Assembly: GCF_018314255.1 (NCBI RefSeq) | Contig: NZ_CP073066.1 | Span: forward strand, 1,364,001 to 1,428,000 | DNA length: 64,000 nt | Source of the DNA: Lentilactobacillus buchneri | Lineage (GTDB): Bacteria; Bacillota; Bacilli; Lactobacillales; Lactobacillaceae | Direction: 5' to 3' | In this document: positions 15,511 to 48,039 of the stretch, in pieces | Layout: each line of letters begins with the position of its first letter | Position numbering within the stretch: position 1 is the stretch's first letter | Made by a program: the position numbers and the translations under genes | The notes under the pieces: model-generated | Told to the model about the DNA's origin: nothing | The model's input: only the letters and a program-made list of their open reading frames with translations | The model's database searches: none

Positions 15511-15540
15511 TAACCACTGTTATCTAGCTGAAACGTGTTC

Positions 15541-15650
15541 CGACGCAACTAATGCTAACGTGTAAGACCAAAAAGCTTTAAATCCAAGACCAGGATTTAA
15601 ATCTTTTCGGTCTTACACACCGCATCACCCGTTGCTCGTCACACTCTGTC
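15541..15650 (-). repeat. Variable-core hairpin element, copy A
   Basis: In the minus-strand direction this begins right after the stop of the glyoxalase-like gene with GACAGAGTGTGACGAG. The basal helices are GCAAC/GTTGC (15545-15549 with 15631-15635) and GATGC/GCATT (15622-15626 with 15551-15555). The internal loop is GGT opposite GTTA. The apical stem, 15560-15585 with 15593-15618, has 26 positions with two mismatches and a TGGTCTT loop. The offsets of all helices match copy B base for base, but the stems differ in sequence. Confidence 0.8.
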
Positions 15651-16040
15651 CTACAGGATTTGGCAGAACTCGATTGTTTCTTCGTTAGGGCCAAGGATGT
15701 TGAAGAATTTAATTCCCTTATCCCAGAATGAAGGAATGGATTGAATTTCATCATTCACCATGCGTAATCCCTGAGCTTTGGCATCAGCGAAAGCTTTTTC
15801 AACATCTGGTGTATTCAGTGAAATATGGTTGATTGCACCAGCTTTACGAGCAGTTGGATCGCCTTCCCAAGTTTCAATGGTTAAGTTGCCAAAACGCATG
15901 AATGCGCAGCGGTTCTCACCGTTATGGAATAAGCCGGCTTGTTCAAAGCCAAGTGATTCATAAAATGCGATTGTTTTGTCCAAATCAACGGATGGAATTC
16001 CAACGTGTTGAATTCCTGTAATATCATCTTTAATTGCCAT
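15651..16040 (-). CDS. VOC-family (glyoxalase/bleomycin-resistance fold) protein
   Basis: This 129-residue protein forms a single vicinal-oxygen-chelate domain (two beta-alpha-beta-beta-beta units). The metal-ligand positions can be placed at His12 (GIQHVGIPSVDL), in the ENRCAFMRFG strand, at the INHISLNTPD histidine and at the terminal Glu of ETIEFCQ. The family includes glyoxalase I and several isomerases and lyases. The exact reaction cannot be read from the sequence. The ATG follows an AGAGG site. It stands between two variable-core hairpins and is transcribed with the same orientation as the mdh operon. Confidence 0.85.
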   Translation of the reverse strand: MAIKDDITGIQHVGIPSVDLDKTIAFYESLGFEQAGLFHNGENRCAFMRFGNLTIETWEGDPTARKAGAINHISLNTPDVEKAFADAKAQGLRMVNDEIQSIPSFWDKGIKFFNILGPNEETIEFCQIL

Positions 16041-16200
16041 GTTTAATTGCCTCTTTCATATTAATTGTGTAACCGCGTTCATTTACGAGGAAACCCAAGC
16101 CCAAGGAACTTCCAGTAAAAACCAGGGTTGATTTTTAATAAAGCACCTTGGGCAAATGTTTGTTAGCCGATTTTGAGATTCCTTCGGCTTCCGAAATACG

Positions 16201-16345
16201 CTCCGACGGCCGGGTGAAGCCCTGCCTAGCCTACTTGGCGACGGCCCAGATGCTAACTTCTAAGTGCCCTTTAATTAAAGTCCCAAAGTCAGGGACTTTA
16301 ATTAAAGGGCACTTAGAAACCGCATCTCCCGGGCCTCGTCGCGCT
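16201..16345 (-). repeat. Variable-core hairpin element, copy B
   Basis: The apical stem is a perfect 27-bp inverted repeat (16258-16284 with 16292-16318) with a 7-nt loop (TGACTTT on the minus strand). Below it come GATGC/GCATC, GGCCC/GGGCC and GCGAC/GTCGC helices at the same offsets as in copy A, with loops GGT/GTTA, GGGA and GA. In the minus direction the element starts within the stop codon of the upstream gene (TAGAGCGCGACGAG). A tail of about 36 nt beyond the helix (16202-16237) is shared with copy C. Confidence 0.85.
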
Positions 16346-17110
16346 CTAATCTTTTCCCACGTCCAAAGCTTGATGCTTCAGGTGAGGGAAGACCTTAGTA
16401 TCCGCGATCCCGGTAATTCCGCCTTGGAATAAGAACGCAAAGATGGTTCCGATTCCCAAGTTGGTGAATTGACGAGTGATTGCGAAGGCCAAGATTGCCA
16501 TCAGTGTTGGTGGAATGTATGATGCCCACATCGCTGTGTTGGCATTTCCTTTGAAATACTTGAAACGCAGAATCTGCATCAAGTCATCGGCGGGGTGCAG
16601 TACCAGGTTGACCCGCTGATAAATGGAGATGGCAGTTCCGATCATTGCGACACCCAAGAAGTTCAAGAGGATATAAAATCCAATCATGAATGGCGTCTTG
16701 GCTGGTGGAAAACCACCAAACAATGCCGGGTACTTACCAAGGAAGAAGTCTTCGAATACTTGAATCAACGCTGAGAAGGGAACCATGAAGATCAGATTTC
16801 CAAGTGCGCGCCGCCAATCCCAGTGTCCAACCAGGATGGCATTTAAAATTGTGATCACGACCCCAAGAATTAAGAATGTCCAAAATAGATTCCAGCCAAA
16901 CGCAACTGCCAGGTTGGCTTCAGCGGCGGTCCAATAAGCCGATCCCAAGTAGGAAGGGTGGATTTGGGCGCTGGTAACCAAGGTAAGCACGTTTCCGGCG
17001 GAGTTAATCACCAAAGAAATGATGAAAAACGTAATGGATTTAGACATCGAGATCGTCCGGCCATTTAGAACTTGGCTGGCGGTTTCCTCATTATTTTTCA
17101 AACTAGTCAC
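16346..17110 (-). CDS. YczE/YyaS/YitT-like integral membrane protein
   Basis: The protein has 254 residues and about five to six membrane segments. The pattern of an early INSAGNVLTL helix, a WTAAEANLA loop and a glycine-containing second helix resembles the YczE/YyaS/YitT group of uncharacterised bacterial membrane proteins. Its start overlaps the stop of the mannitol dehydrogenase gene by 8 bases, so it belongs to the scrK-mdh operon. A role in fructose or mannitol transport is possible but unproven. It ends directly at the copy B hairpin. Confidence 0.7.
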   Translation of the reverse strand: MTSLKNNEETASQVLNGRTISMSKSITFFIISLVINSAGNVLTLVTSAQIHPSYLGSAYWTAAEANLAVAFGWNLFWTFLILGVVITILNAILVGHWDWRRALGNLIFMVPFSALIQVFEDFFLGKYPALFGGFPPAKTPFMIGFYILLNFLGVAMIGTAISIYQRVNLVLHPADDLMQILRFKYFKGNANTAMWASYIPPTLMAILAFAITRQFTNLGIGTIFAFLFQGGITGIADTKVFPHLKHQALDVGKD

Positions 17111-27655: not shown

Positions 27656-27765
27656 CACCAGATTGTAGAATGGTGTGATTAATCCCAGAGCTTAAGTAAA
27701 TCAAGCAATTGTTCCTGATTGATGGGGATGATTGCTTGATTTACTTAAGCGGCTGGCGGTCGTCT
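27656..27765 (+). repeat. Variable-core hairpin element, copy E (degenerate base)
   Basis: The apical stem pairs 27690-27715 with 27725-27750. Twenty outer base pairs are perfect, the rest pair with wobbles, and the loop is TGATTGATG. The left boundary AATCCCAGA and right boundary GGCT match copy C (GATCCCAGA, GGCC), but the basal helices are weak. It begins directly after the stop codon of the CnaB protein gene. Confidence 0.65.
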
Positions 27766-35391: not shown

Positions 35392-35530
35392 GAGTGGGAC
35401 GCGAGGCGTTTTGATCCCAGAATTTAAGTGAAGAAACGAGTTATTCCTGTTTTTGGAATGACTCGTTTCTTTGCTTAAATGGCCGGGATCAGCCGATCGC
35501 CAAGTAGGCTAGACAGGCTTTCAGCCGGCC
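35392..35530 (+). repeat. Variable-core hairpin element, copy C
   Basis: The apical stem pairs 35422-35447 with 35455-35480 (26 positions, three wobbles or mismatches, loop TGTTTTT). The basal helices are GATCCC/GGGATC (35413-35418 with 35485-35490), GGC/GCC and GCGA/TCGC. The element begins with GAGTGGGACGCGAGG overlapping the oppA stop codon. Its 3' tail (35500-35524) matches the tail of copy B at most positions. Confidence 0.8.
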
Positions 35531-35622
35531 GTCGTTGCACGTTTTATCAATATAACATTGGTAATCAAAGCTAGATTGAAAGCTACCATAGCAGTTAATT
35601 TTCCAACTTTCTATAGTTCTAT

Positions 35623-42792: not shown

Positions 42793-43056
42793 ATGAGTAA
42801 AATTTCGATACAAGGCAGTTTAGAGACTAAGCAGATTGTGGGCAGTTATTCCGACGTGGAGAAGAAAATTGTCGCAGATCTGGATTCAGCACAGGTAAAA
42901 GACGGCAAGAAGCCATTTTCAAAGATTGCTGACGAGGTTGTCATCGAACCATATAAGGATGGCGCCTATTCATATCATGCAATGTTAACAGAAGCAGCAA
43001 AAATGTACGATCTGTCACCGGATATCCAAAAGAACGCGCAGGTATCGGAAGACTAG
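42793..43056 (+). CDS. Small hypothetical protein
   Basis: The protein has 87 residues from the ATG at 42793, which has a GAGGAA site. The longer frame from 42751 lacks one. It is soluble, acidic and without a signal or motif. The central part (DSAQVKDGKKPFSKIADEVV) has no assignment that I recognise. Its stop codon TAG is the first part of the copy D hairpin. Confidence 0.65.
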   Translation: MSKISIQGSLETKQIVGSYSDVEKKIVADLDSAQVKDGKKPFSKIADEVVIEPYKDGAYSYHAMLTEAAKMYDLSPDIQKNAQVSED

Positions 43057-43173
43057 AGTGCGGATCAGCCCAGTTAGCCCCGGTGTATAAGGCGAAAAGG
43101 CGGATTGACCAGCGGGCTATGCTGGTTGATTCGGCTTTTTGCCTTATACGTTAGGGTCTGGGCTGAGTAGCAC
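43057..43173 (+). repeat. Variable-core hairpin element, copy D
   Basis: The apical stem pairs 43085-43113 with 43121-43149 (29 positions, several G-U and one mismatch, loop GGGCTAT). The basal helices are GCCC/GGGT (43077-43080 with 43154-43157), AGCCCAG/CTGGGCT (43067-43073 with 43158-43164) and GTGC/GCAC (43058-43061 with 43170-43173). The internal loop CGGT opposite GTTA is the same as in copies A and B. It starts inside the stop codon of the small gene before it. Confidence 0.8.
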
Positions 43174-43199
43174 ATTTCGCAACCAAACAAATTAAAACC

Positions 43200-43250
43200 A
43201 ACAGTGTCCAAAACAAAATTTTCCTGTTTTTGTTTTGGACACTGTTTTTA
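43200..43250. terminator. Strong bidirectional terminator
   Basis: AACAGTGTCCAAAACAAAA pairs perfectly over 19 bp with its complement around a 10-nt loop. A and T runs lie on both sides. Confidence 0.85.
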
Positions 43251-43366
43251 TTAAGACCAACAAGTTCTCAAAAAACGCAAACCAAGTTTCTGATTTGATA
43301 GCAAACTTTTGCGAAAGATATTATAATATTGGTTATGATTGAAATATAGAAAGTGTGCATGTCGCC

Positions 43367-47631: not shown

Positions 47632-47661
47632 TTGTCGATAGTCTCATATCCATGTTATAAT
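47632..47661 (+). promoter_or_regulatory. Promoter of the antisense (antitoxin) RNA
   Basis: TTGTCG (47632-47637) and TATAAT (47656-47661) are 18 bp apart. No ORF follows, which fits a non-coding RNA. Confidence 0.7.
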
Positions 47662-47667
47662 GAAATC

Positions 47668-47788
47668 ACAAAAAGGAAGCCCCGATTCAACAGGACTTCC
47701 CATTGTGGAACCGTTTAAGACGGCAGCGCATTTTTAGTTATTAAATAACCGCAAACTGGCTAAAGTTATGGGCGGTTATTTTTTTTGC
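47668..47788 (+). ncRNA. Predicted antisense RNA of a type I toxin-antitoxin pair
   Basis: The predicted transcript of about 120 nt runs from the promoter at 47632-47661 to a terminator whose stem AATAACCGC/GCGGTTATT (47744-47752 with 47772-47780) also covers the stop codon of the toxin on the other strand. The converging genes with a shared bidirectional terminator follow the Fst/RNAII plan. The 5' half folds into its own hairpin (GGAAGCCC.. region) and has no coding potential. The exact ends are inferred. Confidence 0.65.
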
Positions 47789-47880
47789 CAATTTTTGATT
47801 AACTCTACAACTAAGGTGATTAGTCCAATGGTAAAGATACCAAAGGACACCATTAATTGTAGAGCGTCCGAAACGGACAC
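47776..47880 (-). CDS. Small membrane toxin, holin-like toxin family (Hol_Tox type)
   Basis: The peptide has 34 residues from the GTG at 47878-47880, 8 bases after GGAG. A TTG three bases upstream is the alternative. It has a single membrane helix (LMVSFGIFTIGLITLVVELI), preceded by SVSDALQ and followed by a basic KNWQKK tail. This matches, from memory, the putative holin-like toxin family of lactobacilli. Such peptides act at the membrane and are held back by an antisense RNA. The convergent RNA is present here. The open frame extends upstream to 47964, but that part looks like leader sequence. Confidence 0.85.
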   Translation of the reverse strand: MSVSDALQLMVSFGIFTIGLITLVVELIKNWQKK

Positions 47881-48039
47881 CAAGGGCTCTCCTTTTACTA
47901 GAGTTTCTGAAATTCCTATTTGATGGTTTACACCATAGGCATCATCTCCATTTAGAAGCGCCACCGCCTTAACTTCTCCACAGATTCTAACTATACTGGA
48001 TTTATTTGGTAATAACTACGTAAACTGGTTCATAAATCC

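Follow-up and report, generated by a model that had tools for sequence, protein, structure and literature searches.

Structured repeats behind stop codons in Lentilactobacillus buchneri belong to a mobile family and may cap mRNA 3' ends

Introduction

The DNA analysed here, referred to as the window, is a stretch of 64,000 nucleotides from Lentilactobacillus buchneri. Five long hairpins, designated elements A to E, had been proposed in it as variants of a single plan in which the helices differ from copy to copy, the loops stay constant and the start lies at a stop codon. This raised the question of whether such hairpins form a genuine family, whether their fold is maintained as RNA or as DNA, and why they lie where reading frames end. 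We addressed these questions by comparing the elements with one another, with their copies in the source genome and with the ends of orthologous genes in related lactobacilli.

Results

Elements in the window

The elements and adjacent features of the window are as follows, with R1 denoting a covariance model of the family that is described below.

15530..15648, minus strand: element A, A/B/E type, with the sequence GAGTGTGACGAG-GCAAC ... GTTGC-GTCGGAACAC; 114.9 bits with R1
15560-15618, minus strand: apical stem of element A
15651..16040, minus strand: gene upstream of A, 129 aa, glyoxalase family (PF13669), stop codon TAG at 15651-15653
16194..16348 (approximate), minus strand: element B, type 1 with an extra 3' module; 113.9 bits with R1 for 16228-16348
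16346..17110, minus strand: gene upstream of B, 254 aa, without a Pfam match
27656..27765, plus strand: element C, a long hairpin with arms at 27690-27709 and 27731-27750; doubtful or decayed member
35392..35540 (3' edge approximate), plus strand: element D, type 3, with the sequence GAGTGGGAC ... GATCCCAGAATTTAAG ... CTTAAATGGCCGGGATC and an extra 3' module
43054..43178, plus strand: element E, type 2; 69.3 bits with R1
43192..43254, plus strand: separate inverted repeat 3' of E, possibly an ordinary terminator

The single plan of the original prediction held for A, B, D and E, as judged by their folds and by their copies found with R1 or blastn, and failed for C, which has the long hairpin only. 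A and B were reassigned to the minus strand. The proposed start within or directly after a stop codon, with the opening GAG(T/C)G, was confirmed in A, B, D and E, all of which begin within the stop codon or 0-2 nt behind it. Element A starts 2 nt behind the TAG of the glyoxalase-like gene, the first three bases of B are the TAG stop of its upstream gene, D lies directly behind the TAA of an SBP_bac_5 gene, and E opens with the TAG stop of its own gene. The nearest named relatives of the gene before B are found in Lentilactobacillus otakiensis, parabuchneri, sunkii, kefiri and parakefiri. The same elements carry the predicted apical stem of 26-29 bp on basal helices. The loop pair GGT opposite GTTA, reported as kept in A, B and D, is present in A and B and also in E, whereas D has GA opposite GGCC. 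An extra 3' module of ~36 nt (GCCAAGTAGGCTAG...) occurs in B and D.

Element C follows the stop codon of a Cna_B/collagen-binding gene, its hairpin starting 34 nt past the stop with perfect arms of 20 bp. A blastn search of its own genome with C returned only the element itself and its own antisense, with no second copy, and R1 gave no match. The basal helices of C had been read as complementary replacements of those in the other elements, a reading that was not upheld, as they do not fit the family plan. C is at best a decayed D-type copy.

Rfam gave no gathering-score match at the elements, and lax filters applied to five loci produced only sub-threshold eukaryotic miRNA hairpins. The only Rfam match of the window was a RatA antitoxin RNA at 47658-47747 (plus strand, 74.9 bits). 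It is adjoined by an opposing frame of 62 aa with one hydrophobic stretch (47776-47964, minus strand), and the two look like a TxpA/RatA type I toxin-antitoxin pair.

Family size and anatomy

A blastn search of the 2.54-Mb source genome with element B returned 46 matches, including B itself, antisense echoes and pieces of the 3' module. Covariance model R1 was built from 23 A/B/E-type copies and run over the window and 44 stretches around the matches. It gave 110 matches; 35 of these, antisense echoes, were set aside, which left an A/B/E-type set of 75 in sense, 66 of them scoring at least 41 bits. The nine weaker copies were excluded from the strand-polarity and stop-orientation counts given below. 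R1 misses element D, which represents a separate subfamily (type 3). With D as the query, blastn returned 51 matches in the same genome, and 34 were kept as sense D-type copies or pieces once 17 antisense, tail-only or fragmentary matches had been dropped; two of the 34 look like halves of one interrupted copy. One match is common to the R1 and type 3 lists. At G000:C1:684980-686565 (minus strand), two type 3 pieces ~1.5 kb apart resemble a single copy split by other DNA. Further copies, the absence of which had been named as grounds for rejecting the family, are thus present in both sets, in numbers well above chance expectation. The claim that the apical stem differs in every copy was overstated, since cores recur within subfamilies, of which at least three exist, and identity exceeds 95% in a few pairs of copies. 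Copies also occur in tandem arrays: 24 of the 75 R1 matches are later units of an array and 51 open one.

From 5' to 3' the layout is (T)AGAGYGYGACGAG - P2 - GGG - P3 - GG - P4 - GTTA - P3' - P2' - (G)TCGGARCRYATTTY, and units are about 120 to 220 nt long. P1 is a short basal helix, GYGY/RCRY, that starts one to a few nucleotides behind the stop codon. Between P1 and P2 lies a GA/GA loop, which we take to be readable as a tandem sheared G-A pair; by eye, E and the Levilactobacillus copies have GGA opposite GTA. P2 occurs as GCAAC/GTTGC, GGCCC/GGGCC, GGGCC/GGCCC and other pairs, and is separated by a 3-nt bulge from P3, which occurs as GATGC/GCATC, GAGGC/GCCTC or GACCC/GGGTC. The loop between P3 and P4, GG opposite TTA, is kept. 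P4 is the apical stem of 26-29 bp, closed by a loop mostly of 7 nt that often reads TGNNNTT. In the copies read, the element ends in ATTT(C/T) without a U-run. The tip TGAACG-N4-TTGTTCA is common to type 2 and to terminators; of its 19 genomic matches, 12 fall within R1 matches, and it also occurs outside the listed elements at G000:C1 2376235, 2376376, 1732754 and 1474105.

Selection on the folded form

Covariation of the basal helices, as originally predicted, was evident among 23 distinct copies. Double changes occurred in 29 of 42 pairs, and 97.2% of cells were paired. None of 500 shuffles reached the observed pairing, and sliding the partner by 1-3 columns reduced pairing to at most 46%. 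The internal-loop columns had a mean consensus of 0.93, compared to 0.73 for the columns of helices P1-P3.

Strand polarity was assessed with 141 copies (66 from the source genome, 50 from relatives and 25 from other named loci), which gave 140 distinct sequences; 34 of the relatives' 84 matches and 5 of the 30 from other loci, being antisense echoes or short or weak fragments, were left out. The sense fold was more stable than that of the reverse complement in 139 of the 140, a count partly tied to R1, which set the sense strand, while the orientation relative to stop codons is independent of the model and points in the same direction. G-U pairs numbered 633 on the sense strand and 65 on the other. 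The sense strand was likewise favoured in 32 of the 34 type 3 copies. Because the helices covary, the internal loops are kept and nearly all copies fold better in the sense direction, the form under selection is most likely RNA. These comparisons bear out the proposal that complementary change around constant loops reflects selection on structure.

Position behind stop codons

For 36 of the 51 array-opening copies, the start falls between -10 and +7 nt relative to the stop of a reading frame that is 100 codons or longer. Positions drawn from the window passed the same test in 75 of 4000 cases when random and in 161 of 4000 when intergenic. Among the 66 copies of at least 41 bits, 36 were stop-adjacent in the sense orientation and none in antisense. 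Five of the 15 remaining array-opening copies lie behind a T-run resembling a terminator end, and a few lie behind shorter frames. The five T-run copies score well and would be transcribed only by read-through, which counts against an interpretation as mRNA ends. The next gene is convergent in 13 of the 36 element cases, compared to 8 of 55 genes in the window. Type 3 copies lie near the stop of a frame of 80 or more codons in 17 of 34 cases, often a few nucleotides further away. In other genomes of the same and other genera, 13 of the 29 top copies passed the 100-codon test; of the 16 that failed, six are the same plasmid-type copy, which ends a gene from within, and some lie behind T-runs.

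Element starts range from -10 to +13 around TAA, TAG and TGA stops, which rules out TAG as a mere sequence target being the sole cause of this placement. TAG was the stop in 26 of 37 stop-adjacent copies of the source genome, compared to 14 of 54 long frames of the window; this excess arises because the AG of the element can form part of the stop. At the orthologous ends described below, TAG was found in 26 of 45 with an R1 element and 26 of 53 without, and the effect there is therefore small.

Distribution and recent copying

At E<=1e-4, R1 matched 58 of the 397 Lactobacillaceae genomes searched, belonging to 13 of 40 genera, and in an order-wide sample 6 of 295 genomes, all six of them Lactobacillaceae; the strict filters of both runs lose weak matches. 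The search of this family proposed in the original prediction thus yielded copies well beyond the source species. In 8 of 23 other genomes of the genus there was no R1 match at E<=0.001, under filters that miss some copies (G009 holds one). Because of these genomes without a match, the element seems dispensable.

Phage records gave no R1 match. Plasmid records matching R1 numbered 18, of which 17 come from other genera, and the annotated gene is mostly an ABC transporter gene, presumably the hop-resistance gene horA. Plasmids of beer bacteria from several genera share an ABC transporter gene. In the two such records read, from plasmids of Pediococcus claussenii (L153) and P. inopinatus (L155), this gene, at 772-2523, continues into the element and ends within it, so that its stop codon is supplied by the element.

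At unrelated loci with unrelated flanks lie three type 3 units, 217-218 nt long, which share 97.7-98.6% identity. Their ends are sharp, from GAGTGGGAC to a terminator-like GAGGCCGAGGC...GTC(C/T)CAGCCTC. No target-site duplication was recognised by eye in the flanks of these youngest units. With lax settings, scanning for the type 3 end motif did not discriminate (33 of 34 copies, 963 of 1000 controls); a strict scan, used instead, found the motif in 12 of 34 copies and 12 of 5000 controls. The unit ends GAGTGGGAC and GTCCCAGCCTC are complementary with a 2-nt gap. Pairing of the GAGTGGGAC start with the 3' half of the terminal hairpin (GTCCCAGCCTC) is conceivable in type 3 units such as G000:C1:612303-612520, and it might offer a choice between terminator and antiterminator.

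The family shares several traits with MITEs: it is short, non-coding, dispersed (75 and 34 sense matches) and recently copied (the three near-identical units). The source genome has no match for PF01797 (Y1 transposase), PF00078 (reverse transcriptase) or PF01548 (IS110 transposase). Mobilisation within this genome by a REP/RAYT system, by reverse transcription or by an IS110 transposase was rejected on the lack of matching genes. Together with the position at stop codons (36 of 51 copies, none of 66 in antisense), the recent near-identical copies directly support the proposed role as a palindromic mobile repeat that targets gene ends.

Orthologous gene ends

Orthologous ends were compared for 15 sites of the source genome (site 5 of 16 was left out) in eight genomes of the same genus. 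Of 138 matches, 98 were fetched, leaving out weak, paralogous or surplus rows. An R1 element lies at the stop in 45 of these 98 ends, all of which were chosen from source sites that carry an element, and none lies there in 53. In 89 of the 98 the frame ends at the same codon, which generally rules out truncation of genes by the element; the plasmid ABC transporter gene is an exception.

Across 116 same-site pairs of species, the median identity of the elements was 67%, compared to 87% for the final 75 nt of the coding sequence. Copies from different sites in different species were 65% identical, a small and significant difference from the same-site value (p=2e-5). Same-site pairs fell below 70% identity in 70 of 116 cases and reached 80% or more in 16, and the nearest relative of a copy was at the same site in 21 of 61 cases. 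These comparisons suggest that the place at the gene end is kept and that the core is often exchanged. Exchange appears not to be universal, since same-site copies are slightly closer than others and some pairs remain at 80% identity or more; both inheritance and replacement of elements are indicated.

At site 2, the source genome, L. parakefiri and L. otakiensis share an identical 18 nt behind the element, and L. sunkii differs by one base. The core of the source copy is 58-60% identical to the cores of these three species, and the L. parakefiri and L. otakiensis cores are 83% identical to each other. At site 1, inspection by eye places the element downstream of its gene and ahead of the ribosome-binding site that serves the next one. 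Site A, the end of the glyoxalase-like gene, is also occupied in L. rapi, L. kisonensis and several Levilactobacillus species and partly in L. dabitei; in many other relatives this gene has an ordinary 3' end instead.

Truncated remnants, recognised by eye where no R1 element lies at the stop, occur at L170, L177 and L236, with the outer arms kept and most of the core gone. A similar remnant, with outer arms and a mostly lost core, lies behind the glyoxalase-like gene at L096. The draft contigs L055 (L. sunkii) and L253 (G021:C28) end tens of nucleotides past stops where relatives carry an element, as if the elements broke the assemblies there.

Discussion

The reading that we favour, with some reserve, is that these elements form a large family of mobile repeats in lactobacilli, short and non-coding, which reside at gene 3' ends and act there as a structured 3'-UTR element capping mRNAs. 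The fold, its covariation and strand, the place at stop codons, the recent copying and the exchange of cores between kept flanks were all seen in the comparisons of sequences; the role in mRNA is what these features suggest. In transcripts the elements would make up the start of the 3' UTR and act as folded RNA. By closing, the structure may seal the mRNA immediately after the stop codon; 3' exonucleases would then find no single-stranded hold and would stall before the reading frame, possibly after RNase III has cut the long stem. Since the element lies so near the stop, P1 and part of P2 would be covered by a terminating ribosome, and the base would be expected to close only after release, with no ribosome on the stop. 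Protection of 3' ends, one of the roles originally proposed, is plausible, and there is a precedent in the bcr3 repeats, which go with longer mRNA half-life, although their authors caution that the numbers are small (PMC3446304). Nothing in the present comparisons points to an sRNA sponge, another of the roles proposed.

The arrays of unlike units and the conserved arms suggest that cores are exchanged by recombination or template switching. Spread and core swaps could both occur by copying between family members through the conserved arms, perhaps within tandem arrays or where the hairpin stalls a replication fork. More tentatively, and with considerable doubt on our part, the element could be a mobile mRNA-end cap in the full sense, which lands exactly behind an existing stop codon, has its basal helix gated by the terminating ribosome, keeps its place across species and swaps its core as a cassette, such that structure and position would be inherited and sequence would not.

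A different explanation is that the repeats are purely selfish, the fold serving their own copying through an RNA or single-stranded DNA intermediate and gene ends being the sites of least harm. This is possible, although on balance we doubt it. The patchy distribution (58 of 397 genomes), the near-identical recent copies, the tandem arrays (24 of 75 matches being later units) and the 18 plasmid records fit it well. Harmlessness alone, however, does not explain why starts lie a few nucleotides from the stop instead of anywhere in intergenic DNA, nor the orientation of 36 against 0, and many of the same ends stay occupied across species despite changes of core (45 of 98). Long, near-perfect stems are good substrates for template switching, and the elements could be DNA palindromes in which one arm is copied onto the other, making covariation no sign of selection. 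Active copying is evident from the tandem arrays and the in-place core changes. Template switching predicts no strand preference, however, whereas 139 of 140 copies prefer one strand and G-U pairs are about tenfold more frequent there than in the mirror fold, and it leaves the kept internal loops between changing helices unexplained. As a preference for the sense strand is expected neither from a double-stranded DNA palindrome nor from upkeep by template switching, both are disfavoured, and we consider the latter very unlikely.

Termination, also proposed originally, would make the elements unusual and possibly bidirectional terminators. Their place at gene ends agrees with this, as does the more frequent convergence of the next gene (13 of 36 against 8 of 55); some type 3 units even close with a GAGGC...GCCTC hairpin that resembles a terminator and in several cases is followed by T residues, and the strict motif was found in 12 of 34. 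Against it stands the end in ATTT(C/T), with no U-run in the copies read of the kind that directly follows the GC-rich hairpin of an intrinsic terminator. In addition, ribosomes in E. coli repress a terminator almost completely when it lies a few base pairs past a stop codon (PMC4824070), and the elements start at the stop. By eye, the site 1 element precedes the ribosome-binding site of the next gene, and terminator-like hairpins lie further downstream of some elements. A plain termination role is thus weakened because no U-run follows and because, by the E. coli work, a hairpin so near the stop is poorly placed (PMC4824070), and this explanation appears unlikely. A final possibility is a REP element mobilised by a transposase of the RAYT type, or an attC-like site that recombines in the form of folded single-stranded DNA. 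The elements are palindromes arranged in tandem at gene ends, and attC sites, too, lie after stop codons and have variable sequences. This final possibility is the most improbable of the explanations: PF01797, PF00078 and PF01548 have no match in the source genome, and the units of about 120 to 220 nt, with no GTAG or CGTC end tag by eye, differ from REPs of 20-40 bp. Integron attC sites have the core sites RYYYAAC/GTTRRRY and fold on the strand opposite to gene sense. They appear unlikely here, as the GTTAGC in the P3/P4 loop misfits GTTRRRY and the folded strand is the gene sense strand.

If the favoured reading is true, a single lactobacillus has several dozen genes whose 3' UTR is structured and removable and is absent from the RNA family databases searched. 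Orthologues that have or lack the element, or that differ in its core, would form a natural set for testing how a hairpin immediately after a stop codon affects mRNA life and ribosome release. Two further questions follow: by what means stop codons and terminator ends are located when no transposase is evident, and by what process a core is replaced between flanks that both stay.

A literature search, with most subscription journals outside its reach, found no description of this family. Among known repeats, the EFAR elements lie near stop codons, form stem-loops and are possible bidirectional terminators. They belong to Enterococcus and are counted among the MITEs, which are often inserted beside genes, are transcribed and influence their neighbours through robust secondary structure (PMC3733652). 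Compared by description only, EFAR differs in that a covarying fold of several helices and an exchange of cores do not figure in the passages that treat it (PMC3733652), and the R1 matches in searches reaching beyond the Lactobacillaceae were all in genomes of that family. REP/BIME elements are likewise short palindromes outside genes, grouped or paired, but are 20-40 bp long with GTAG or CGTC tags (PMC3733652), and the source genome is without RAYT. STAR elements of staphylococci are also intergenic repeats of unknown function and means of spread; unlike the present family, they are 14-bp GC-rich direct repeats with locus-specific spacers, their S. aureus loci are unoccupied in other species, and their authors saw no sign of gene conversion (PMC3532100). 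The L17 downstream element (RF01708) shares with the family its structure, its place in putative 3' UTRs and its range in Lactobacillales (and Listeria), and its strand was argued from G-U pairs, but the account of it places it behind ribosomal protein L17 genes alone (PMC2864571), and it has no Rfam match at the present elements. The bcr repeats of the Bacillus cereus group are interspersed and some are structured, and copies occur in transcripts (84 of 165 and 62 of 155), often in UTRs (PMC3446304). They belong to another lineage, and neither stop-codon anchoring nor core exchange appears in the relevant parts of their description (PMC3446304). In kind, the family stands beside MITE-like repeats such as EFAR and bcr, and it is set apart from both, as they are described, by its anchor at the stop codon, its fold on one strand and the exchange of its core in place.
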